A stretch of DNA of 36,278 bases. It comes from a virus. Each line of letters starts with the position of its first letter. Positions within the stretch are counted from its first letter, which is position 1. Below the pieces are notes generated by a model. That model was given only the letters and a program-made list of their open reading frames with translations. It had not been told where the DNA came from and ran no database searches. The translations under genes were made by a program, and so were the position numbers. Location of the stretch: positions 1-36,278 of the IMG/VR virus record IMGVR_UViG_3300044640_000918. The stretch is one strand, 5' to 3'. Below, in pieces: positions 1 through 11,512 of this stretch.

Positions 1-20
1 CAAACAAGGGGGAAGTAATT

Positions 21-203
21 ATGAGATACTTAATTTTTTTAAACGTCATAATTTTTACAGTATTACTAACGGCTAAGGTCTGTATAAAGCAGGTGGATTT
101 AGAGTTCTTATACTTCACTGTGTTCCTATTCTTAAGCATAATAGCAACAGTAGTCAACTTAATGGACATAGAAATAAAGGAATTGAAAGATGAATCAAGA
201 TGA
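21..203 (+). CDS. Small two-helix membrane protein, unknown function
   Basis: A 60-residue protein with two hydrophobic stretches (about residues 3-18 and 28-47) separated by a short polar loop (KVCIKQVDLE) and ending in a charged tail (IEIKELKDESR). It is probably an inner-membrane protein. A strong Shine-Dalgarno run (AAGGGGGAAG, bases 6-15) precedes the ATG. It overlaps the next gene by 14 bases in another frame. It lies at the head of the visible early block, where phages often keep small host-takeover proteins, but nothing in the sequence gives a function. Confidence 0.6.
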   Translation: MRYLIFLNVIIFTVLLTAKVCIKQVDLEFLYFTVFLFLSIIATVVNLMDIEIKELKDESR

Positions 204-879
204 ATTGGAAAAGAAGTGGCGAGAAGAGTTTGCTCGTTATGAAATAGAGTTAATGAATGGTGGATATGTCAATGAAGAAATGATTTACATTGCCGCCTGC
301 AAAGCTCGTCAAAAAGAGATTAACGATTTAAAAGACTATTTGAGTATAAAAGAAAACTGCCATCAAGAAAAACTCAAAGAAATGGATGAGGATTTCAATA
401 AGTATAGGACGATAACAAAGAAAGAGATTGAAAAGAGAGATGAGTTACTTGAGTTTTGTTTGCCTTTTATGGAATACATTCATGCTAGATTGCCCGAGGG
501 AAGTGAGGCTTTAAAGAAGTATAATGACTGGCTCAAAGAATATGGAGAATTAAAAAATGGAACAAAGCGAGTGGATATTTACCTCTATTTCAATAATATT
601 TTGGTTGGGCGTTATGTGTGGGGTATACAGATGAATCGAAGTGAATTGGAAAAGATAAAGTTAAAAGCATGGAAAAGTTTTTTGAAATCTCAAAACTGTC
701 CTGAAGATGATGACTCCCCCCATACTGACGAATTTACATTTGGCTTCAACGCAGGAGTCGAGGCACTTCAAAAAGAACTCGATGAGGCGGTGGAGTTACT
801 TCAAAAATATTGGGACGATGATAACGTAGCAAAACAAGCAGGTCATGGTGATTTTCTAGCAAAAGTAAAGAGGGGTTGA
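190..879 (+). CDS. Unknown acidic coiled-coil protein with internal duplication
   Basis: A 229-residue, strongly charged, helical protein that I do not recognise. Two modules share a pattern: residues 1-45 open MNQDELEK and contain an A-C-KA-QKEI helix, and residues 148-200 open MNRSELEK and contain FGFNAGVEALQKEL. Between them is a coiled coil (about 45-75) and a short globular stretch (KRVDIYLYFNNILVGRYVW). The second module starts with an in-frame ATG at 631 preceded by a G-rich run (GGGG, 620-623), so it could be made as a separate 82-residue protein. The arrangement looks like fusion of two tandem copies of a small phage gene. The annotated start overlaps the upstream gene by 14 bases. 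Confidence 0.65.
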   Translation: MNQDELEKKWREEFARYEIELMNGGYVNEEMIYIAACKARQKEINDLKDYLSIKENCHQEKLKEMDEDFNKYRTITKKEIEKRDELLEFCLPFMEYIHARLPEGSEALKKYNDWLKEYGELKNGTKRVDIYLYFNNILVGRYVWGIQMNRSELEKIKLKAWKSFLKSQNCPEDDDSPHTDEFTFGFNAGVEALQKELDEAVELLQKYWDDDNVAKQAGHGDFLAKVKRG

Positions 880-880
880 G

Positions 881-1129
881 ATGAAGAAAAGAATACACAT
901 TAACCAACATAGAATAAGAAGTAATAGTAAAGAGGACAGTGACAAGCTACCTGTTATTAGTATTAAGAGAGGTAAAGATATTCATTATGCTGACAGTGTA
1001 GTTGTGTTAGGTGAAAGCAAGGTAGTATATAACCCTGACAAACCACTGTCATGTGGTGCTAGGGTATGGATTGAAACAGAAGCAGAGTTAAGAGTTCAGT
1101 ATAACAGTGAAGAATACACACTACTATAG
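881..1129 (+). CDS. Conserved small phage protein (KRIHINQH / PLSCGARVWIET type)
   Basis: An 82-residue protein. The opening KKRIHINQH, the middle segment PVISIKRGKDIHYADSV and the motif KPLSCGARVWIETEAE match, from memory, a small protein family found in many phages and prophages with no assigned function. The shape is mostly beta, with no membrane segment. It starts one base after the stop of the coiled-coil gene, with the ribosome site (AAAGAGG) inside the end of that gene, so the two are probably co-translated. It belongs to the early plus-strand operon. Confidence 0.7.
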   Translation: MKKRIHINQHRIRSNSKEDSDKLPVISIKRGKDIHYADSVVVLGESKVVYNPDKPLSCGARVWIETEAELRVQYNSEEYTLL

Positions 1130-1137
1130 GAGGAACA

Positions 1138-1308
1138 ATGAACCAAGTAATCATAGATAGAATAGCTGAGGTATCGGAAACAAGATCACGCTTTCACCAA
1201 TTAAAGAAGCGTGTATCTGATTGGAAGTTTGTTATCTTGGTAACAGTATTAACATTCACTCTCAAGGTGGGAGCAGAACAATTGGCTATGCTATTCATTA
1301 GGAGATAG
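1138..1308 (+). CDS. Small single-span membrane protein (56 aa)
   Basis: A 56-residue reading frame beginning MNQVIIDRIAEVSETR and ending AMLFIRR. The N-terminal half is a charged amphipathic helix (to about residue 29). Residues about 30-45 (FKVILVTVLTFTL type) form one hydrophobic span. A near-ideal ribosome site, AGGAGG, lies 4 bases before the ATG and overlaps the stop of the previous gene. Its last codons (AGGAGA) supply the ribosome site for the next gene at 1312. This tight embedding on both sides is the best evidence that it is real. The role is unknown; an early membrane-associated host-interaction protein is possible. Confidence 0.6.
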   Translation: MNQVIIDRIAEVSETRSRFHQLKKRVSDWKFVILVTVLTFTLKVGAEQLAMLFIRR

Positions 1309-1311
1309 GCA

Positions 1312-1578
1312 ATGAGCAAAGAAAAACACATACGATTACACGTGACACTTAACTTAGATGACATTTGTTATGACATCACAACTAGAAAAGCACAAGAGGT
1401 AGTACAATACTTGATTGATAAGTATTACCTTAAAGATACTAAACTTATAACAAGTAAGCGTAGCATAATAATCCGTTTATCCGATGAGGAGCATGACAAA
1501 CTACTTGGAATTGCAGAGTCTAATAACATTTCAATTAATAAATTATTGAAAGAAGGATTGAAAGAACTTAGTATTTAG
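1312..1578 (+). CDS. Possible ribbon-helix-helix DNA-binding protein
   Basis: An 88-residue protein. Residues about 50-86 read as a strand (SIIIRLSDEE), a helix (HDKLLGIAESNNI), a turn, and a second helix (SINKLLKEGLKEL). This is the order and size of the Arc/CopG ribbon-helix-helix fold, which binds DNA as a dimer through the strand. The N-terminal half (HIRLHVTLNLDDICYDITTRKAQ) is unlike a known domain. It lies just before the primase-helicase, so it could regulate the early block. The ribosome site AGGAG sits 7 bases upstream inside the end of the 56-residue gene. The call rests on pattern only. Confidence 0.5.
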   Translation: MSKEKHIRLHVTLNLDDICYDITTRKAQEVVQYLIDKYYLKDTKLITSKRSIIIRLSDEEHDKLLGIAESNNISINKLLKEGLKELSI

Positions 1579-1606
1579 TTTCACCCCTTAACAAAACGAG
1601 AGAATC

Positions 1607-3961
1607 ATGTCTGAGAAATACATTCAAATTATCGGATACCGTAAAGGTACTGATAAGAAAAGTGGCAAGCAGTATGTTTGGCAAAAACATTTTGACCACA
1701 TCAAGGTAACGTCTGTTATTAAATTGTTTGAACACCTCGACGCTATCGTTGAGGCAATACCCGAGAGTGAAAGATACGATGTCCATTACACCAATGCGAA
1801 CTGCGTACCTGTTAAGGCAGATAAGACTGTGCCTCTTAGGTTGTTTGCATATCAAGAGATGATACCTATTGACCTTGATGGTATTGATCTTGATAGGAAA
1901 GATGAGTACATCAACATAGTCCTTAAGACATTTCGAGTTGATAGGAATAAGACAGGTATCTTTTGCTCAGGTCATGGGTTGCATTTAGTAATAGCACTGA
2001 CACAAGAAATTGAAACAGGATCTGAGTTAAATAGATTGCAGAAATTTTACACTGCTATTTGTGGAAAGATAAACGTCGCTATCTTTGAGGCAGGTTTAAC
2101 TGGACACGCTGACCCTATCAGGCTAGCTGAATCGGCTACACTTAGACTACCTAATACACTGAACATGAAAGACCCTGAGAACCCAGTTAAATCATACGTG
2201 ATACAAGGGAACGTGGAACCACAACCAGTGTACCTTGATAAGTTGATTGACATAACAGAAGAGAAAGAAGTTGAAGCCGTTGTATCTCTAAGGGCAGTGG
2301 ATACCAAGGCAGTATTAGGTGGGTGTAAGTTCCTTAAGTATGCACTCGAAGAACCTGAGTCAGTAACAGAACCACAGTGGTATGCAATGATAGGTACACT
2401 GAGTTTTATACCTGAGATAGGAGATACTCTTTGCCATACGTACAGTGAGAAGCACCCTGATTATAGCTTTGAAGAAACAGAAACCAAAGTTACACAAGCC
2501 AAGTCACTAGGTAAACCTAGAACTTGTAGCTCTATCAATCAGGTGTATCCATCATGTGTCGAGTGTCCTTACTTTAATAAGGTCAAGACACCGCTATCAA
2601 TTAAAGGTGATGACTTCATTGCTACTGAAGCAACAGGATTCCACACGCTGATAACAGATAACGGAGTAGTGAAACACGTACCATGTTACTCTGACCTGCT
2701 GAAATTTTTTACCAAGCAGTACACCTATGCAGTTGACAAGACAACGAGAGAGGTAAGGATATTCAATGGTAAGTATTGGACTGAGTACACAGACGCAGAG
2801 GTAGATAACTTTGCCACTAGAAACTTTGACCCTATACCAAAGAACCAACAGCGATCAGAGTTCAGAGGATTACTACTCTCTACTAACGTGGTTGATAGTT
2901 CATTCTTCCAATCTAATAGCAGTGGTCATGTTAACTTTAACAATGGTGTATTGAGGATAGTAGACAGGGTACTACTACCACACTCAGCAGAGTATGGATT
3001 TATTTATGTATTACCTTACGACTACAATCCCCACGCTACCTGTCCTGAGTTTGATAAGCTACTGGACAACGTAACTCTGAAAGATAAGGATATGCAGAAC
3101 CTATTACTAGAGTTCATTGGTTACGCTATCAGTGGAAGGAGTGCTTCATTCGGAAGTAAGGCACTGATACTAACAGGTAGAGGAAGTAATGGTAAGTCTA
3201 CATTCCTTAACGTAATTAAAATGCTAGTAGGTAAGAGCTGTTACTCAGCAGTATCACTCACTGATATGTCGAACCCTAACTTCAGGTACTCGATGGTGGG
3301 TAAACTGTTTAACATTTGTGAGGAAGAGGAAGACGATGCCTTGAGAAATGGAACTGCCATGTTTAAATCTATCACCACTGGTGCAGATGTAATGGTAAAG
3401 AAACTATACACTGACGTAGCACCAATGAGAATAGATACTAAGATCATATTAAGTTGTAACGAGTTACCATCAAGCAAGGAAAATACTTACGCTATCTATA
3501 GGCGTATGCTTATCGTCCCATTCAAGGCGAGGTTTGATAAGTCTACTGGATTAGATAAGAACATAGAGCAAAGAGTTGAGAAAGAAATGAGTGGTGTTTA
3601 TAACAAGGTACTCGACGCTCTCGATAGATTGATAAAGAACAATGGTATCTTTACTGAATCAGAGCAAGCAAGCAAGGCACTAGATGAGTACAAGTATAGT
3701 AACTCATACTACAACCAGTTCGCTGAGGCTAACCTTGCAGTGGGTACTAAGAATGATTACGTATCATCAGATGAATTGGTTGGTATGTTTAATGCTTGGG
3801 CACACATGAATAACATTAAGATGTCACCGACAAGTCATAGATTAATAAAAGAGTTGAGAGCAATTGGAGCATTACCAGACGAAGCAGTAGTTAAGAGAAC
3901 AGGGAACGGAGTTAAAAGAGTATTTGAGAATGTAAAGAAGTTAAACATAGGAGCGTTCTAG
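1607..3961 (+). CDS. Primase-helicase: AEP-type primase fused to SF3 (D5-like) helicase
   Basis: A 784-residue replication protein expected to lay RNA or DNA primers and unwind the template. The N-terminal part looks like an archaeo-eukaryotic primase: acidic pair PIDLDGIDLD (D89, D91), SGHGLH (121-126) and ADPIRLAESATLRLPNTLN (168-186). A middle PriCT-like segment (about 240-325) ends with cysteines C307, C317 and C320 that could bind zinc. The C-terminal part is a phage/plasmid D5-type SF3 helicase: Walker A GRGSNGKS (524-531), Walker B-like LFNICEEEE (568-575) and the sensor motif IILSCNELP (613-621), followed by an arginine-rich finger region (YRRMLIVPFKARF). The next helicase gene starts one base after its stop. 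Size and domain order fit the family. Confidence 0.9.
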   Translation: MSEKYIQIIGYRKGTDKKSGKQYVWQKHFDHIKVTSVIKLFEHLDAIVEAIPESERYDVHYTNANCVPVKADKTVPLRLFAYQEMIPIDLDGIDLDRKDEYINIVLKTFRVDRNKTGIFCSGHGLHLVIALTQEIETGSELNRLQKFYTAICGKINVAIFEAGLTGHADPIRLAESATLRLPNTLNMKDPENPVKSYVIQGNVEPQPVYLDKLIDITEEKEVEAVVSLRAVDTKAVLGGCKFLKYALEEPESVTEPQWYAMIGTLSFIPEIGDTLCHTYSEKHPDYSFEETETKVTQAKSLGKPRTCSSINQVYPSCVECPYFNKVKTPLSIKGDDFIATEATGFHTLITDNGVVKHVPCYSDLLKFFTKQYTYAVDKTTREVRIFNGKYWTEYTDAEVDNFATRNFDPIPKNQQRSEFRGLLLSTNVVDSSFFQSNSSGHVNFNNGVLRIVDRVLLPHSAEYGFIYVLPYDYNPHATCPEFDKLLDNVTLKDKDMQNLLLEFIGYAISGRSASFGSKALILTGRGSNGKSTFLNVIKMLVGKSCYSAVSLTDMSNPNFRYSMVGKLFNICEEEEDDALRNGTAMFKSITTGADVMVKKLYTDVAPMRIDTKIILSCNELPSSKENTYAIYRRMLIVPFKARFDKSTGLDKNIEQRVEKEMSGVYNKVLDALDRLIKNNGIFTESEQASKALDEYKYSNSYYNQFAEANLAVGTKNDYVSSDELVGMFNAWAHMNNIKMSPTSHRLIKELRAIGALPDEAVVKRTGNGVKRVFENVKKLNIGAF

Positions 3962-3962
3962 T

Positions 3963-5429
3963 ATGCAATGGGATTGGTTAACGAATGGTTTAAAGAGGAC
4001 ACCATACAAGCATCAGTTGGATGCGGTTGAGTTCTTCGATAGTATGAAAGATGGTAACTTATTCTTTGAGATGGGTACAGGTAAGACAGGTACTGCGATC
4101 ATGGTGTATAGGAACTGGTGCAGGAGAGAGGCACGATTACTTAGGTGCTTGGTAGTAGCACCATCAGTTGTACTACACAATTGGAAAGATGAATTTGATT
4201 TCTTCTCCAAGATTTCTAAGGATATTATTTTCCCACTGGCTAAGGGTACAGGTAAAGATAAAGCTGAGTTCATGTACACCAAGGTCATACCTAACATAGA
4301 GGGTGCGATAGTTGTCACCAATTACGAGGCACTGTTAAACAAAGATTTGTTTACTGCAATTGAGAGATGGAATCCAGAGGTAATCATATTCGATGAGGTT
4401 CACTACGTTAAGAACAGTAAAGCAAAGAGAAGTAAACTGTGTATCAGGTTGGCAGAGACTAGCTTATACAGACTAGGCTTGACAGGTACACCGATCTTAA
4501 AGAACACAGCAGATGTCTATGGTATATTTAGAGTGGTTGATTTAGGTAAGACGTTTGGTACTAATGAGTACACATTCCAAAGTAAATATCTCATAGATAA
4601 GAACGCAAGGAATCCACACGTATCATTCCCATCATGGGTTGATAACCCTAAGACATACCCTGAGGTACAAGAAAAGATTTATCGCAAGTCACTTAGAAAA
4701 TTAAAGTCCGAGTGTCTTGATCTACCTGATCTAATCAAGGTGGTAAGGTATGCAGATTGGGGTACTAAACAGAAGTCAAGTTATCAAGCACTCAAGAAAG
4801 ATTTCCTTGCGTTCATCGAGAGCAAGAGATCAGATGGTGTACCTGATACAGTGACAGCCAACCTAGCTATCGTAAAAGGTTTACGCCTACTGCAAATTGC
4901 AAGTGGGTTTGTTATGACTGATGACAACAACATACATGAGTTCGAGGAAGTTCCAAGACTTAGGTTGGTTGAAGAACTACTGGAAGAAATTGTTTTACAG
5001 TCAGAACAGAAGTGTATATTATGGTGTGTATTCAAACACAATTATAAAATGCTTAGTAAGGTATGTACTCAACTAGGTATTAAACACGTCTTCATAACAG
5101 GGGAACAGACTACTGCCGAGAAAAGAAATTCAGAGCTTGCATTTCAAAATGATCCTACTGTCAAGGTAGTCATTGCGAATACATCAGCAGGTGGAGTAGG
5201 TATTAACTTAACTGCGGCATCACACTCCATAGTGTACAGTCGTGGGTTTAACCTAGCCCATCACCTGCAATCAGAAGCACGTAACCATAGAGGTGGGTCT
5301 GAAGTACATGACAAGATAGTTAAGATAGACATAGCGATTAAAGATTCAATAGACGAAGCGGTAATGCAGGCACTAAGTAACAAGCATCAGATCAGTACAG
5401 ACGTACTGGATATATTGAGGGAGGAATAA
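3963..5429 (+). CDS. SNF2-type superfamily 2 helicase/ATPase
   Basis: A 488-residue SF2 ATPase. It shows a Q-like KHQLDAV, Walker A MGTGKT (37-42), motif Ia CLVVAPS, motif Ib VVTNYEAL, motif II DEVH (144-147), motif III LTGTPILKN (173-181), motif V SAGGVGINLTAA and motif VI QSEARNHRGG (about 436-445). The DEVH box and the QxxxRxHR pattern place it with SNF2/DEAD-like translocases carried by many phages between primase and polymerase. It probably remodels DNA during replication or recombination; no extra chromatin or nuclease domain is present. The next gene's ATG shares its stop (TAATG), which suggests translational coupling. Confidence 0.88.
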   Translation: MQWDWLTNGLKRTPYKHQLDAVEFFDSMKDGNLFFEMGTGKTGTAIMVYRNWCRREARLLRCLVVAPSVVLHNWKDEFDFFSKISKDIIFPLAKGTGKDKAEFMYTKVIPNIEGAIVVTNYEALLNKDLFTAIERWNPEVIIFDEVHYVKNSKAKRSKLCIRLAETSLYRLGLTGTPILKNTADVYGIFRVVDLGKTFGTNEYTFQSKYLIDKNARNPHVSFPSWVDNPKTYPEVQEKIYRKSLRKLKSECLDLPDLIKVVRYADWGTKQKSSYQALKKDFLAFIESKRSDGVPDTVTANLAIVKGLRLLQIASGFVMTDDNNIHEFEEVPRLRLVEELLEEIVLQSEQKCILWCVFKHNYKMLSKVCTQLGIKHVFITGEQTTAEKRNSELAFQNDPTVKVVIANTSAGGVGINLTAASHSIVYSRGFNLAHHLQSEARNHRGGSEVHDKIVKIDIAIKDSIDEAVMQALSNKHQISTDVLDILREE

Positions 5430-5893
5430 TGGAAACAGGTTTTGAGTTAGAACAGGTTAGAGAAGTAACGACACAGGAATTAGATGAGGCAGTAACAGCA
5501 TTAGCACAGGCAAGGAAACTGTACCAAGAAGCTAGTGCTATTAGCGATGACAGGCACGCAGAGGTGAAGAAGTTAGAGGGTAAGTTAATTGAACTACTTA
5601 CTTACGCTAACAAAACATCGTACATTGTGGACAAGGTAGCACAAGTAACAGTGGTATCTAAGGCACAGGTAACAACACCAAAAACTTTAGACCAGAAGAA
5701 AGAGTTCTTTGAATGGTTGAGACAGAAGTATGGTGATGACGGATTACTGGCATATCAAACCATTAACAGCAATACACTAAACAGTTTGTATAATGCAGAG
5801 ATGGCTAAGGCACTAGAGAAAGGTGAAGAGTTTACAGTTAAAGGGCTAGACTTACCAATGGTGGTAAGATCATTACAAGTTAGGAGTAGATAA
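5429..5893 (+). CDS. Conserved phage protein of unknown function in replication block
   Basis: A 154-residue soluble protein. Residues about 15-65 form a long charged helix (ELDEAVTALAQARKLYQ onward), followed by a small domain with KKEFFEWLRQKYGDDGLLAYQTINSNTLNSLYNAE type sequence. The tail (GLDLPMVVRSLQVR) resembles, from memory, phage proteins next to the putative ssDNA-binding gene in similar clusters, none with an assigned activity. It overlaps its neighbours on both sides by one base (TAATG), so it is co-translated with the SNF2 helicase and the 48-residue gene. A replication accessory role is likely from position only. Confidence 0.65.
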   Translation: METGFELEQVREVTTQELDEAVTALAQARKLYQEASAISDDRHAEVKKLEGKLIELLTYANKTSYIVDKVAQVTVVSKAQVTTPKTLDQKKEFFEWLRQKYGDDGLLAYQTINSNTLNSLYNAEMAKALEKGEEFTVKGLDLPMVVRSLQVRSR

Positions 5894-6039
5894 TGGAAGA
5901 GTTAAAGAGAAAGTTGCAAGAGATTAAAACACTTTGCGATGACAGAATGGATGCTATCACAGCAGACGGAAATGTTTTGGCAGATGTATTTAAAGCAGTG
6001 GAAAGTATTTTAGAATCAATGGACAAAAAAACTAAGTAA
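5893..6039 (+). CDS. Small helical protein (48 aa)
   Basis: A 48-residue charged helical protein (MEELKRKLQEIKTLCDD onward, ending MDKKTK). The start overlaps the previous stop as TAATG, and a ribosome site TAGGAG lies 6 bases upstream inside the previous gene. No membrane segment and no known motif are visible. The coupling and the gap-free fit between two real genes support it. Confidence 0.55.
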   Translation: MEELKRKLQEIKTLCDDRMDAITADGNVLADVFKAVESILESMDKKTK

Positions 6040-6054
6040 TCAATTGGAGAATTT

Positions 6055-6774
6055 ATGAGTAAGAAAAACGAAGTAGCAGTACAAGAAACAAAAGAAGTAG
6101 TGGCACAAGATGTAGTTAACATGAATGAGTGGGGTGATGTAGTAGTTGAATCGAAAGATTTAATTCTCCCAAAGATTCTATTACAACAAGCAATGAGCGC
6201 ATCGGTTAAGGCAAGAACAGCTAACGATGGTGACTACTTAAACACATTAACAGATCAGGTTTGTTCAGACGCTAAGGGTGAAGTCAACGTACTCCCATTC
6301 TTTTGCAGACAATCGTACACCATTGAGAAATGGAATGGTAAGAAGTTTGAGTTCTTTAAATCAGAGCCGTACATTGGGGAACAGAAACCTTTTGAAGAGG
6401 AAGTAGGTGGTGTGAGATATAGAAACATGCACCTCTATGAGTTCTTCTGTTTACTTGAAGAGGGTGGGCTACCTGCCATTGTACCATTCAAGTCAACGTC
6501 ACATAGAACAGGTAAGAAGTTATTTAATATCATGTACCTTCAGAATCCACAGCAAGGTAAGACACCTGCACATAACTGGATTACGTTAGGTAGAAGCGAG
6601 GACAGTAAGGACGGTGACAAATATTTCGTAATGGAAATGTCACTAGGTAGACAGTCAACTACTGCTGAACTTGAAGAGTGCAAGACATGGATTAAAACAA
6701 TCAAGACTACTGAGTTCAAGATTGCAGAAGAGAAGCCTGCGACACAGGCACCTGTTACTGAAACGAGGTTTTAA
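6055..6774 (+). CDS. Putative ssDNA-binding-type phage replication protein
   Basis: A 239-residue soluble protein. The segment ILPKILLQQAMSASVKARTAN (about 36-56), a beta-rich core (about 80-190) and a disordered, partly acidic C-terminus ending in phenylalanine (EEKPATQAPVTETRF) are seen. Proteins of this look occur immediately before family A polymerases in phages. Position, beta content and the flexible tail suggest an OB-fold ssDNA-binding role, but I cannot see a diagnostic motif. A recombination mediator is another possibility. Ribosome site TTGGAGAATTT precedes the ATG, and the polymerase ATG overlaps its stop (TAATG). Confidence 0.45.
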   Translation: MSKKNEVAVQETKEVVAQDVVNMNEWGDVVVESKDLILPKILLQQAMSASVKARTANDGDYLNTLTDQVCSDAKGEVNVLPFFCRQSYTIEKWNGKKFEFFKSEPYIGEQKPFEEEVGGVRYRNMHLYEFFCLLEEGGLPAIVPFKSTSHRTGKKLFNIMYLQNPQQGKTPAHNWITLGRSEDSKDGDKYFVMEMSLGRQSTTAELEECKTWIKTIKTTEFKIAEEKPATQAPVTETRF

Positions 6775-8699
6775 TGTCTAGGGTTATAGTAACCCATGAC
6801 AACAAAGCGGAGGCACTAAGCTGTCTCCGCTCTATTACACGTGGGGTAATAGCACTGGATACAGAGACCTATGGTCTGAAGTATGAGGACAAAGCATTTG
6901 CTTTACAGCTCGCAGTTCAGAATGGTGATAGCTTTTATTTTAACTTCCATGAATATCCATTAGAACAAAATGCACCAGTGTTAGATAGGTCTGTGTTCGC
7001 TGAACTACATGACCTATGGAGAAGACCAGACATCAGGTGGGTAATGGCTAATGCCAAGTTTGATATGAGAAGGATTGCAATTGAAGGCACGTATTTGAAC
7101 GGGGAAATATATGACGTGCTACTTATGGAACGGATTCGTTACAATCGTTACTACAGTTACAGTCTTGATTCTAGCCTTAAGCGTATTGGCTTGGCTAAGA
7201 ATGATAAGGTTTCATTATGGATCAAGGACAATAAAGCATACACCACATACCATGTTGAGGGTAAGAAGACTAAAGAGAAAGACCTTCATTACGACAGGGT
7301 TCCTTTTGATCTTATGGTTGAGTACGGTTTCGATGACGTCGAAGATACTCTCAAGTTATACGAAGACCAAGTTAAATACTTCACACTACCAGAGAACCTT
7401 GAACAGGTAGACTTGGTTCACTCTAACATAGAGTTAGTTAAGACTACGTTTGCAATGGAGAGTAGAGGGATACAGTTAGACTTAGACTACTGCAAGCGTA
7501 TGCTTGAGGTGGAACAGCAGGGTATTCGATCAGCTTCAGAAGCTATCGAACGTATGACATCAGATAAATATAAGGCAAGTCCTAAATGGTTAGCGGAGGT
7601 ATTAAATGCTCAAGGAATTACACTGGAAATTAGCGACAAGGGGAATCCTATTCTTGATAAGGACGCACTCAAAGGTATACCAAATGCGGTTGCCCATTAT
7701 GTTTTGGAGATGCGCGATCACGAGAAGAGAGCTAGTACGTACCAAACCCTTCTTAGGTATTGCGATAGACATGGGGTACTACATACAAACTATCGACTCA
7801 ATGGAACTGACACTCTCCGATTCAGTAGTGACACTCCAAATTTACAGAACATCGAGGCGTGTGAAAAAGACAATCTATCCACAGTACGTACAGCCTTTAA
7901 ACCCAGAGAGGGTTCGTTCTTTGTATCCATAGATTACAGAGCTATGGAGTACAGGTTAGTAGCTGATATAGCAGGTGAGCTTGGTTGGATTGAAGCTATC
8001 TTAAACGGAGCAGACCCACACCAATGGGTTGCTGACTTGATGGGAACTGATCGTAAAGCTGCAAAGACTTTGAACTTCATGCTCCTCTATGGTGGTGGAC
8101 TAGCCAAGCTAGCAAGCTCACTGTACCCATGCCTTACTGGTGAGGACGTGCTTCATGCTATCTGTATGGTTCATATCTACAAAAGCAAGAGGGACTTAGC
8201 TAAGTACACAGGTATGATCTCGCACTTAAGCACTGATACAATAGCACATGAGATAGAGCAGTTGACCAAGGCAGATAGACTTAAGAAACAATACTTCGAT
8301 GCCCTTCCAAAGGTGGGAGCTTTCACCAAGAAAGTAATGGAAGTGGGTGTGCAACGAGGGTATGTTAAGAACGCCTTTGGTATGAGGTACTTTGTTGATG
8401 ATGCTAGGTTCGCATACAAGTTACCCAATCACTTGATCCAAGGTACAGGTGGCTGTGTAATCAGAGATGCTATGAATAGAATTGAATACGCCAATGAAAT
8501 GCGTGGCTCTAATCTACTGTTACAAATTCACGATGAACTTTTATTCGAGTGTAAGTATGGGGAAGAGGACTTGATTAACGAGTGGCGCAGGATAATGGAA
8601 GAGACATACAAACCATTGAACGGAATGAAACTAGAATGTGACGTAGAGTATTCTACCCACAGTTGGAATGCAAATACTTATAAGAAGTGGGAGGGGTAA
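6774..8699 (+). CDS. polA: Family A DNA polymerase with 3'-5' exonuclease
   Basis: A 641-residue replicative polymerase. The proofreading domain has Exo I DTE (29-31), Exo II NAKFD (93-97) and Exo III YGFDD (184-188). The polymerase domain has the T/R motif DTLRFSSDTPNLQNIE (346-361), motif A SIDYRAMEYRL (385-395, catalytic D387), motif B R427-K431-F435-Y439 in DRKAAKTLNFMLLYGG, and motif C QIHDELLFE (584-592, catalytic D587). There is no 5'-3' nuclease domain. F435 aligns with F762 of E. coli Pol I. The length is shorter than T7 gp5, and the 30-odd residues after motif B (TGEDVLHAICMVHIYKSKR) look like an insertion. It is coupled by TAATG to both neighbours. Confidence 0.95.
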   Translation: MSRVIVTHDNKAEALSCLRSITRGVIALDTETYGLKYEDKAFALQLAVQNGDSFYFNFHEYPLEQNAPVLDRSVFAELHDLWRRPDIRWVMANAKFDMRRIAIEGTYLNGEIYDVLLMERIRYNRYYSYSLDSSLKRIGLAKNDKVSLWIKDNKAYTTYHVEGKKTKEKDLHYDRVPFDLMVEYGFDDVEDTLKLYEDQVKYFTLPENLEQVDLVHSNIELVKTTFAMESRGIQLDLDYCKRMLEVEQQGIRSASEAIERMTSDKYKASPKWLAEVLNAQGITLEISDKGNPILDKDALKGIPNAVAHYVLEMRDHEKRASTYQTLLRYCDRHGVLHTNYRLNGTDTLRFSSDTPNLQNIEACEKDNLSTVRTAFKPREGSFFVSIDYRAMEYRLVADIAGELGWIEAILNGADPHQWVADLMGTDRKAAKTLNFMLLYGGGLAKLASSLYPCLTGEDVLHAICMVHIYKSKRDLAKYTGMISHLSTDTIAHEIEQLTKADRLKKQYFDALPKVGAFTKKVMEVGVQRGYVKNAFGMRYFVDDARFAYKLPNHLIQGTGGCVIRDAMNRIEYANEMRGSNLLLQIHDELLFECKYGEEDLINEWRRIMEETYKPLNGMKLECDVEYSTHSWNANTYKKWEG

Positions 8700-9037
8700 T
8701 GACAATAGGAAAAGGTTTTAGAATCGAGGATTTATTAAACGGAAAGATTAACAAGGAAAATTTTAACATTGACTACTTACCAATGTGGCAAATGTTAGAT
8801 AACCTAGATAAGAAACTGCAAGGTGGACTTAGTTCCCTAAGCCACGAGGATATATGGAAAAGGATTTATGACTTTGCTATCATATCTGTGTCACTTGATA
8901 AGGCAGACATGCAGACTAGGATTGATAACTTAACGGAGCAAAACATTAAATGGTTCAGCCAAGCGGACGCACTACAGGCAGAGAACGAGAAATTAAAACA
9001 GCAACTCCAAGAGAAGCTGTCTTCCAACGTAAACTAA
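8699..9037 (+). CDS. Unknown protein with C-terminal coiled coil
   Basis: A 112-residue protein starting MTIGKGFRIEDLLNGKI, with a helical middle (SHEDIWKRIYDFAIISVSLDK) and a C-terminal heptad-rich coiled coil (about 78-108, TRIDNLTEQN then LQAENEKLKQQLQEKL). A longer frame from GTG 8687 exists. I chose ATG 8699 because it overlaps the polymerase stop as TAATG, like the other junctions here, and because the G-rich run at 8689-8696 then serves as ribosome site. No function is recognised. Its last 88 bases overlap the nuclease gene in another frame. Confidence 0.6.
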   Translation: MTIGKGFRIEDLLNGKINKENFNIDYLPMWQMLDNLDKKLQGGLSSLSHEDIWKRIYDFAIISVSLDKADMQTRIDNLTEQNIKWFSQADALQAENEKLKQQLQEKLSSNVN

Positions 9038-9312
9038 TTAAACTACTTCGGGCAATCCCTAACTCTTGGTGGACAGTAAAAGAAGCTAAGAGCCTAAGAG
9101 GATTGCCTGATATATTCGGGTGTATTAATGGTACGTTCATTGCTCTCGAATGCAAACGTAGCCTAGCAGAATCAAGGCACAACACAGGAAGAACTGTTCT
9201 ACAGAAAAAGATTCTAAATGATATAAGTAATGTTGGAGCTTACTCATCTTTTATCTACCCAGAAAACATGGAGGAAGTTCTTGAGGAACTGCGAGAAATG
9301 TCTAAAGAGTAA
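8950..9312 (+). CDS. PD-(D/E)XK nuclease, VRR-NUC-like
   Basis: A 120-residue small nuclease. The core reads REAVFQRKLIKLL (21-33, conserved first-helix acid E22), then GLPDIFGCINGTFIALECKR (51-70) with D54, E67 and K69 as the PD-ExK catalytic set, then QKKILNDISNVGAYS (about 85-99), the Q/K helix after the core. Proteins of this type act on branched DNA (VRR-NUC / Holliday resolvase-like) and often accompany phage replication genes. The ATG at 8950 has GGAG 11 bases upstream and puts 88 bases inside the preceding gene. The first 20 residues are not part of the fold, and no later ATG, GTG or TTG is available before the core, so the exact start is uncertain. Confidence 0.8.
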   Translation: MVQPSGRTTGREREIKTATPREAVFQRKLIKLLRAIPNSWWTVKEAKSLRGLPDIFGCINGTFIALECKRSLAESRHNTGRTVLQKKILNDISNVGAYSSFIYPENMEEVLEELREMSKE

Positions 9313-9319
9313 AGAGGAC

Positions 9320-9526
9320 ATGGCTTTCAAAGGACACTCCTTATATTGCAGACTATGTTCACTGTACTTAACCAAAGAAGAGAAGGCTAAAAGTGTAGAG
9401 CACGTCCGAGCTGTATCCAATAAGTATTACCAAGAGAAGTATTGGAGAAACAAAACAAGGGTACGTAACTCTAAGACATCTACTTCTTCATCTTCGGGCG
9501 TATGTCAAAGTTCTCAAGAAGCATAG
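9320..9526 (+). CDS. Small CxxC protein, last gene of the plus-strand block
   Basis: A 68-residue basic protein. H6 and the pair C10/C13 (GHSLYCRLCSLYL) with H30 could form one zinc site. The C-terminus is a serine/threonine-rich tail (KTSTSSSSGV). A longer frame begins at 9230 inside the nuclease gene. I chose ATG 9320 because AAAGAGG lies directly upstream, after the nuclease stop, and because the protein starts sensibly there. Its final 47 bases run antisense over the 3' end of the minus-strand metallopeptidase gene, so this is where the two transcription directions meet. Function unknown. Confidence 0.55.
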   Translation: MAFKGHSLYCRLCSLYLTKEEKAKSVEHVRAVSNKYYQEKYWRNKTRVRNSKTSTSSSSGVCQSSQEA

Positions 9527-9779
9527 TCGCATAGTTATTAACTATGAACTCATGTACTTCGTAGCTAATAGCTTGATTAATACTGACCCTGTAAAACATA
9601 GCATGACCACATTCATGTAGTAGGGTGTGTAATAATTCTCTATCTGTTTCGTGCATTTCATTTAATGTTATAATCAATTTATCAGGCTCATACTGACCCG
9701 CCACATTCAGTGGTAATTTATTACTAACAATCAGCTTAACTTTTAAACCAAATATCTTTAGCCACTTTGGTAACTTCAT
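9480..9779 (-). CDS. Small HExxH zinc metallopeptidase-like protein
   Basis: A 99-residue protein with the zinc-peptidase signature LLHTLLHECGHAMFYR (H55-E56-C-G-H59) and a likely third ligand at E74 in SYEVHEF. Before it is a short beta segment (KLIITLNEM) typical of the substrate-edge strand. It resembles minimal phage/plasmid metallopeptidases of the IrrE/ImmA-like or SprT-like kind, which cut or bind regulatory proteins; the substrate is unknown. A GTG at 9782 lengthens the frame by one codon. ATG 9779 is preferred because AGGAG (9790-9786) is then 6 bases away. It follows the HNH gene directly and is the last minus-strand gene, overlapping the end of the plus-strand block. Confidence 0.72.
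   Translation of the reverse strand: MKLPKWLKIFGLKVKLIVSNKLPLNVAGQYEPDKLIITLNEMHETDRELLHTLLHECGHAMFYRVSINQAISYEVHEFIVNNYATMLLENFDIRPKMKK
9530..9546. repeat. 17-base palindrome at the convergence point
   Basis: CATAGTTA-T-TAACTATG is a perfect inverted repeat with 8-base arms and a single central base. It lies 4 bases past the stop of the last plus-strand gene and inside the coding sequence of the metallopeptidase (encoding IVNNYATM). It could be a weak hairpin for plus-strand transcripts or an operator-like site. It is AT-rich and has no U-tract, so I do not call it a terminator. Confidence 0.35.
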
Positions 9780-9782
9780 CAC

Positions 9783-10154
9783 CTACTCCTGTTTCATTAA
9801 ATCTTTTTTGGAGATCACTTCCGATATTGATTTTACCTTTTCCAAGAACGCATCACCATGTAATGTACCTTTCAAAAAGTTACATGTAGAACAGCAGGAC
9901 TTTACATTGTCGAGGGTGTAACCCTTTGTATTATCGTATCTATCTATACCGTTTAGGTAGGCTGTTTTGTTTGCGCTAAGGTTTCCGTACCGTGTAACCT
10001 TGGGTGGCGTACCGCAGTAGAAGCAGTTACCCTTTACAAGATCCAAGAAGTCCTCTCTGCCTAATTCAAAGGGGAAGTTTTTTCGACGGGCGTTGTATTT
10101 ATATTGACTATAATGGCGGTTGATGGTAGATAGTTCTGTGCTTTTGGAAGGCAT
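9783..10154 (-). CDS. HNH endonuclease, probably free-standing homing type
   Basis: A 123-residue nuclease. Zinc knuckle C44-x2-C47 (NCFYCGTPP) pairs with C88-x2-C91 (CCSTCN). Between them lies the HNH core NGIDRYDNTKGYTLDNV (68-84), in which D71 replaces the first histidine as in many phage HNH enzymes, with N83 as the central asparagine. The N-terminal part is basic (HYSQYKYNARRKNF), suited to DNA contact. A longer frame starts at 10193, but its extra 13 residues read through a perfect hairpin. ATG 10154 has GGGGAG 8 bases upstream, so it is the real start. It sits past the late terminator with its own structured leader and next to the metallopeptidase gene, typical of a mobile gene inserted at an operon end. 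Confidence 0.85.
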   Translation of the reverse strand: MPSKSTELSTINRHYSQYKYNARRKNFPFELGREDFLDLVKGNCFYCGTPPKVTRYGNLSANKTAYLNGIDRYDNTKGYTLDNVKSCCSTCNFLKGTLHGDAFLEKVKSISEVISKKDLMKQE

Positions 10155-10157
10155 AAA

Positions 10158-10183
10158 GGCTACTCCCCATGCAAGGAGTAGCC
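10158..10183 (-). promoter_or_regulatory. RBS-sequestering hairpin of the HNH gene
   Basis: GGCTACTCC (10158-10166) and GGAGTAGCC (10175-10183) form a perfect 9-bp stem with an 8-base loop. In minus-strand RNA the 3' arm contains the GGAG ribosome site of the HNH gene, and the start codon follows 3 bases after the stem. Folding would hide the ribosome site. No U-tract follows, so it is not a terminator. T4 I-TevI is controlled by the same device; function here is inferred. Confidence 0.6.
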
Positions 10184-10255
10184 GACAACACATAGTCCTT
10201 CGGAGGAAGGCGTAATCAGCTACACGTCCTTGTGTATCTCATTGATTAATTATGT
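10184..10255 (-). other. Structured leader between late terminator and HNH gene
   Basis: No gene is seen. Two short hairpins lie here: CCTTC/GAAGG with a 4-base loop (10197-10210) and TACAC/GTGTA with a 6-base loop (10221-10236). With the flanking terminator and the ribosome-site hairpin they make four stems in about 130 bases. The stretch probably holds the promoter or processing site for the HNH transcript, but no clear -35/-10 pair is visible. Confidence 0.3.
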
Positions 10256-10284
10256 AATAGGGTTACATCAAATGCAACCCTATT
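10256..10284 (-). terminator. Hairpin terminator closing the late operon
   Basis: AATAGGGTTACAT (10256-10268) and ATGCAACCCTATT (10272-10284) form a 13-bp stem with a 3-base loop. The one non-Watson-Crick position is a G-U pair on the minus strand but an A-C mismatch on the plus strand, so the structure was kept for minus-strand RNA. It starts 4 bases after the stop of the kelch-like gene. The minus-strand tail is A/U-rich (TACATAATTAAT) rather than a pure U-run; the plus-strand tail (TTTAATTAAAT) could also stop plus transcripts. Confidence 0.6.
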
Positions 10285-10288
10285 TTAA

Positions 10289-11512
10289 TTAAATAAATAG
10301 TGGAGTTCTTAGCATCGTAGCAGATGTGTGTAGTAGGCAGTAGTAGAACTCTATTCCATCTGGCGATTTAATAACACAAGATTTATCCCCAACAACTACC
10401 GCACCTTGAGCAAACAGATACTGCGTTCCGTAAGGATCAACTCTGTTTAGAGTAGGATTAAACTTGTACATTCTGTTTGTGTTTTCTTTCATAAACACAA
10501 TCTCAGATTGCTGTGCCGATGCGTTTGATCTAATACCAAAAGAAGAACCTGTACTTATAGCTTCTGTGGCAGGGTGGTAAGTAACGGTAGACCAAGTGTT
10601 CGATGTCAAACTGTACTTGTAAAGAGTAGCAGAGTTAGACCCTCTGAAAAGGAATAAAGAGTTAGCGTCATTTGCAGGTAACCACTTGAGAGCTTGACCT
10701 GTACCTACTGCCGCAGGGATAGCGGGCATCGCAGGGTTACCAGCGTTAGCTGAAGTAGTAGCCCATGCGTTTGTGTTCACAGAGTATCTGTAGATAACAG
10801 TCGCGCCGTTACCAACTAGGTACATTTCATTATAGTATAATGCAGCAGAAGCGTTAGGAACTGAAGCAATCAAAGCAGCAACAGTGATCGACGTAGCCGA
10901 AGCCGCCGCCGCCGCAGTTAATACCGCTAGAACAGGCGCCGTATAAGTTCCAAAGTTTAGGATAGTACCGACAGGTAAAGCCACTGGTAATGCAGAAACA
11001 GATATAGAAGTAGCCCCTGCGTTAGCTAGTGCTGTAGTAGTAATTGTCTGTAATACTGGCGAGTGATACCCACCAATGTACCCATTGTAAAATGGTTCTG
11101 GGTAACTAATTTTAGCATCAGTACCAAACGTAGCAGGAATACCTGTTACAGAAAGGTTAGACCAAACGTTTGTTGCAATGTCATATCTGTTTAATACAGG
11201 AGCCGCTACCCCGTTAGAGATAAGCGCGTACACAGAGCCGTACACTTCCCCGTTAAACTGACCACCGATTTGCTTTGAGTATCTTACCGTAGTACCAACA
11301 CCAACAGTACCACCCGTAGGGTTAGCTAACTGTTGCCAAGCATTTGTCCACGTATCGTATCTCCAAAATGCTGTAGCTGAAAAAAGTATGTATATGAATC
11401 TTACGTTGTCGTCAGCCATAGTTACCCCTGCCGCAGAGTTGGCAGGTGCAGGTGCTAACTGCTCCCATACAGGAAGGTCAACCATTCTTAAATTGTTATT
11501 AACTACTGGCAT
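10289..11512 (-). CDS. Kelch-like beta-propeller tail/appendage protein
   Basis: A 407-residue protein, last in the late operon. At least four blades carry the kelch-like signature Y-D/S-x4-N-x-W: YDTWTNAW (52-59), YDIATNVW (110-117), YSVNTNAW (243-250) and YSLTSNTW (300-307), followed by a fifth weaker one (YKFNPTLNRV). Between blades two and three is an Ala/Thr/Ser-rich insert (about 155-225) holding two copies of a short beta motif, ATSISVSALPVALPVGTIL and ATSITVAALIASVP, like modules seen in other phage structural proteins. A propeller at the end of the fibre genes suggests a receptor- or glycan-binding role at the tail tip. The ribosome site TTAGGAG precedes the ATG. Confidence 0.7.
   Translation of the reverse strand: MPVVNNNLRMVDLPVWEQLAPAPANSAAGVTMADDNVRFIYILFSATAFWRYDTWTNAWQQLANPTGGTVGVGTTVRYSKQIGGQFNGEVYGSVYALISNGVAAPVLNRYDIATNVWSNLSVTGIPATFGTDAKISYPEPFYNGYIGGYHSPVLQTITTTALANAGATSISVSALPVALPVGTILNFGTYTAPVLAVLTAAAAASATSITVAALIASVPNASAALYYNEMYLVGNGATVIYRYSVNTNAWATTSANAGNPAMPAIPAAVGTGQALKWLPANDANSLFLFRGSNSATLYKYSLTSNTWSTVTYHPATEAISTGSSFGIRSNASAQQSEIVFMKENTNRMYKFNPTLNRVDPYGTQYLFAQGAVVVGDKSCVIKSPDGIEFYYCLLHTSATMLRTPLFI

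Follow-up and report, generated by a model that had tools for sequence, protein, structure and literature searches.

Genes and features at the locus

The window analysed here is a whole stretch of 36,278 nucleotides, the IMG/VR virus record IMGVR_UViG_3300044640_000918. The early block of genes is on the + strand (1-9526), and the late block is on the minus strand and ends at 10289. Past the late block, the minus strand carries an HNH gene (10154-9783) and then a SprT-like gene (9782-9480). Searches by DNA, by HNH, polymerase, VRR-type nuclease, and SprT, and among genome contigs find no close relatives of the window, and no relative in which the hairpin leader can be aligned. The main features are as follows.

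9480-9782, minus strand: gene for a SprT-like small metalloprotease with an HECGH motif, abutting the HNH stop; its Shine-Dalgarno (SD) sequence, CAGGAG, lies within the end of the HNH gene
9783-10154, minus strand: gene for a PacI-like HNH nuclease of 123 aa, without the N-terminal Cys-rich domain (by profile and fold)
10152-10157, minus strand: TTT tail (10157-10155) followed by the ATG start codon (10154-10152); TTTAT forms a terminator-like tail
10163-10168, minus strand: SD sequence GGGGAG of the HNH gene, in the 3' arm of the hairpin, 8 nt before the ATG
10155-10193, minus strand: 13-codon in-frame N-terminal extension from ATG 10193, of improbable use
10158-10183, minus strand: SD-bearing hairpin of 11 bp (9 Watson-Crick and 2 G.U pairs) with the 4-nt loop GCAU, from folding and a stem scan
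10256-10284, no strand assigned: another strong hairpin, immediately behind the final late gene, with a U-tail on the + strand only

The HNH nuclease and its SprT-like partner

The HNH protein is nearest to PacI (PDB 3LDY), both in profile comparison (E 6.8e-11) and in fold (Foldseek E 2.8e-5, TM 0.60), the input rows for structure prediction being the window and the fetched loci only. In particular, it contains an HNH core with the conserved zinc Cys and the DR motif, and its PHROG matches are the endonuclease and endonuclease VII families. It differs from PacI in sequence, with 19% identity, and in its association with a SprT-like gene. Most of the ~100 HNH homologues bear an extra Cys-rich N-terminal domain, which is absent from the window protein. 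A PacI site, TTAATTAA, is located at 10285-10292, just upstream of the HNH gene; such sites are not enriched in the window (3 versus 2.5 expected). In another locus (L119), two HNH copies (312-635 and 1501-1842) lie within 1.5 kb.

No other early start is found for the HNH gene, the in-frame ATG at 10193 having AAGGA just 2 nt away. The 13 extra residues of this longer frame, dismissed as spurious in the sequence-only reading, are probably so, given the SD spacing and the fact that the residues encode the palindrome itself. The N-termini of the short HNH proteins of two other phages, L140 and L179, are of a length that fits a start at ATG 10154.

A short PacI-like HNH gene directly followed by a SprT-like metalloprotease gene is found in three dissimilar phages: the window (9480-10154), L140 (1459-2114), and L179 (1465-2159). 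This recurrence points to a two-gene unit and speaks against a simple homing cassette, although the nuclease may still be mobile. The earlier description of the nuclease as homing-type is not supported: the protein is PacI-like, it belongs to the recurring unit, and no homing evidence is found. Elsewhere, the SprT-like gene lies directly behind a metallophosphoesterase instead (L116:5300-6300, L117:5300-6297, L199:1797-2797, and L203:1239-2785), and the nuclease-type partner of the SprT-like gene may have been swapped. L116, L117, and L199, which have the metallophosphoesterase in the place of the HNH gene, are too distant to show an empty site (the portal is not found in the L116 and L117 records).

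Structure of the hairpin and accessibility of the SD sequence

The hairpin at 10158-10183 is real and statistically unusual. On the minus strand, the stem reads GGCTACTCC-TTGCATGG-GGAGTAGCC. Its arms (10158-10166 and 10175-10183) pair perfectly over 9 bp, exactly where they had first been placed, and two more U.G pairs extend the stem to 11 bp. Only two perfect stems of at least 9 bp (loop of at most 12 nt) occur in the 36-kb window, this one and the one at 10256-10284. Under a first-order Markov null, 1.45 stems of at least 9 bp are expected per window, and 0.15 with at least 6 G/C pairs. Both stems gain G.U pairs in minus-strand RNA only; the energies in minus-strand RNA and on the other strand are -17.4 versus -15.6 kcal/mol for 10158-10183 and -15.4 versus -10.7 kcal/mol for 10256-10284. 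No known RNA family or tRNA is matched at the hairpin, a search of Rfam included.

The sole good SD sequence of the HNH gene (10168-10163) had been assigned to the stem, with the ATG 3 bases past it. Both assignments stand: no better SD sequence is found, and TTT separates the stem from the ATG at 10154. The SD sequence, in the 3' arm, is predicted to be mostly paired, with a mean unpaired probability of ~0.07 for the hexamer in each of the transcripts folded, those starting inside the 5' arm included. Opening it in a context of 130-150 nt costs 6.7-7.9 kcal/mol, which ranks fourth among 36 genes. In this wider context the 5' arm has another pairing partner, which brings the cost to about that of the major capsid gene (7.4 kcal/mol). 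Therefore, folding alone cannot support strong silencing, and the damping of the HNH gene may be mild.

The hairpin as a probable intrinsic terminator

Window sites were scanned for terminators with the d'Aubenton-Carafa score, with shuffled windows as the null. The HNH hairpin scores +19.9, second among the five window sites above 0, and a score of 17 is never reached in the shuffled windows. The hairpin has the stable G/C-rich stem and the short loop of an intrinsic terminator, and its score rests mainly on stem strength. The tail after the stem, UUUAUGCC, has 3 U and then 4 T of 8, and the site is missed by a stricter 5-of-8 scan. Because the U-tail is short (UUUAU), termination here would be leaky at best.

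The top site (28981-28964, +45.9) and the third (29387-29371, +17.1) both lie on the minus strand between late genes, adjoining the major capsid gene, and are strong intrinsic-terminator-like sites in their own right. T7-like phages have a comparable terminator after gene 10.

The HNH gene had been thought to lie past a late terminator at 10256-10284. This assignment is not supported: on the minus strand that hairpin has a poor U-tail and scores -12 to -33, as against +19.9 for the HNH hairpin, and it is better regarded as a terminator of early (+) RNA. In the window scan, the minus strand from the HNH hairpin down to 6830 is free of strong terminator sites, so that without this hairpin late transcription would continue into the early genes in antisense direction.

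The HNH hairpin is similar to the intrinsic terminators between phage late genes in its G/C-rich stem, partly U-rich tail, late-operon setting, and L140-like position, but differs from them in that the U-tail is short, a gene start follows 3 nt on, and the SD sequence lies in the 3' arm. It could be an ordinary late-operon intrinsic terminator, with the HNH start directly behind it by happenstance, an incidental SD overlap, and no selected translational control. The score and the position of the hairpin are consistent with this explanation, as is L140, where a textbook terminator, GGCCAGTAGCAATACTGGCC-TTTTT, immediately precedes the short HNH and SprT pair with no SD overlap. Likewise, 3 of the 57 intergenic hairpins in ~1 Mb of loci lie at most 9 nt from a start, which by our estimate is roughly the chance level in compact genomes. 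However, GGGGAG is a strong SD sequence at ideal spacing and the only one that the gene has, and we regard happenstance as unlikely, if a serious alternative.

Alternative pairing upstream of the hairpin

Part of the hairpin can pair with a segment further upstream. Calculated duplex energies define two arms, the third being the remaining arm of the hairpin.

10172-10186, minus strand: arm 2 (GTCGGCTACTCCTTG), which pairs with arm 3 (the hairpin) or with the upstream arm 1
10215-10232, minus strand: arm 1 (CAAGGA-CGT-GTAGCTGAT), the alternative partner of arm 2

The energies of the arm 1:2 duplex (-20.4 kcal/mol) and the arm 2:3 duplex (-21.2 kcal/mol) are near equal. The arm 1:2 pairing is significant against dinucleotide shuffles (p=0.0017) and against random genomic windows (p=0.0037), and its ratio to the arm 2:3 pairing ranks second among the 76 hairpins of at least 8 bp in the fetched loci. 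A mini-ORF (10242-10216) spans arm 1. These observations are no more than suggestive of an attenuator-like switch, in which arms 1 and 2 would pair first and leave the SD arm free, and blockage of arm 1 by a signal or a ribosome would let arms 2 and 3 pair and shut the gene. Such a bistable leader would jointly control transcription past 10158 and translation of the PacI-like nuclease, before the conserved nuclease-SprT unit. We consider it rather improbable, because the pairing was noticed post hoc, a ratio of at least 0.9 is reached by 3 of the 76 hairpins, the SD sequence is still weakly paired downstream in the 1:2 state, and the mini-ORF is without an SD sequence.

Hairpins at gene starts in other loci

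SD occlusion is not clearly enriched in the HNH family (~100 homologues). An SD sequence with an unpaired probability below 0.2 is found in 20% of the family versus 17% of the controls, and stems of -12 kcal/mol or stronger cover the SD sequence in 8 of 41 members versus 28 of 276 controls. In the ~1 Mb of loci, non-coding DNA has two further SD-bearing hairpins at most 9 nt from a start. Both end 3-4 nt short of the start codon, one in front of an SNF2 (helicase) gene (L204:2663-2685) and the other in front of a gene for a 118-aa protein (L168:2576-2613).

The figures for the HNH family are what might be expected of a chance or non-regulatory structure, e.g., an RNA-stability or processing hairpin that leaves the HNH gene unaffected. 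The small number of G/C-rich stems of this length expected per window argues against this explanation, to which we give slightly less weight than to the bistable leader.

The stem sequence itself (GGCTACTCC-N8-GGAGTAGCC) occurs in 9 IMG/VR contigs, in contexts unlike that of the window. It is intergenic in L092-L095 and lies in a tail-assembly reading frame in L096, L097, and L100. The differing contexts in the 9 contigs rule out a shared element. In L096, L097 (1681-1706), and L100 (3156-3181), the stem is located in an overlapping frame behind a tail gene and resembles a tail-assembly frameshift region.

Comparison with translational silencing in T4

In the mRNAs of I-TevI, I-TevII, I-TevIII, segB, and Aeh1 mobE, a very stable stem sequesters the SD sequence ~8 nt before the AUG (PMC2988022), and a late promoter gives RNA too short to form the stem (PMC2988022; PMC3014915). 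Inhibitory structures are also found at the translation starts of the T4 genes 49 (endonuclease VII), e, and soc (PMC3014915). The HNH hairpin shares with the first group the stable stem, the SD position, the nuclease gene, and the polycistronic RNA, and its SD sequence is predicted to be sequestered in the same manner. Genes 49, e, and soc likewise have the SD sequence and/or the AUG sequestered before late genes, one of which encodes a non-homing nuclease.

The window differs from the first group in that no promoter candidate lies at the stem, the gene belongs to a PacI-like HNH-SprT unit, and the stem is also terminator-like. A sigma70-type model, which may not be that of the host, gives no promoter candidate in or beside the stem. 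One weak candidate lies upstream.

10249-10277, minus strand: sigma70-like TTGCAT-17-CATAAT, ranked 154 on its strand in the promoter scan and not convincing; RNA would start near 10242 and keep the whole hairpin

Shorter RNAs starting at 10182-10170 are not predicted to free the SD sequence, which is 0.03-0.10 unpaired and pairs with downstream sequence. T4 gene e is freed by a shorter late RNA, whereas no such RNA is predicted in the window. Thus, the parallel with I-TevI stands for the position of the SD sequence in a stable stem but not for relief by a promoter. A T4-type timed switch, in which read-through RNA hides the SD sequence and a promoter at the stem yields a truncated RNA that can be translated, has the geometry of the known cases in its favour (PMC2988022) but is not supported, and is the least probable of the readings, given that the sole promoter candidate keeps the stem whole, the shorter RNAs still pair the SD sequence, and homing evidence is not found.

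Discussion

The explanation that we favour, with about an even chance of being correct, is that the hairpin is a leaky terminator at the downstream end of the late (minus-strand) operon and that its 3' arm additionally masks the SD sequence of the HNH gene. When late transcription moves beyond the last tail gene, the 11-bp stem and UUUAU would form and act as a leaky intrinsic terminator. In the read-through RNA, the SD sequence would be held in the 3' arm, and initiation would be lowered further. The net outcome would be a low, constitutive damping of the HNH nuclease. The SprT-like gene would probably be damped less, with its own SD sequence within the end of the HNH gene. The stem, the SD position, the terminator score, and the gene order are seen directly in the analysis, and we infer termination, translational damping, and their size. 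In favour of this explanation are the exact stem, SD sequence, and spacing, the terminator score, the similar sites between late genes next to the capsid gene, the L140 terminator before its HNH and SprT pair, and the SD-bearing hairpins of L204 and L168; the short U-tail, the dependence of the score on stem strength, and the capsid-like opening cost weigh against it.

Separately, the repeated association of small HNH nucleases with SprT-like proteases offers a testable lead. If the leaky-terminator explanation is correct, a single stem would work as a terminator and a ribosome-site lock together. If the hairpin damps the nuclease, this would be another phage, podovirus-like and outside the T4 group, that uses RNA structure to conceal the start of a gene for a DNA-cutting enzyme.
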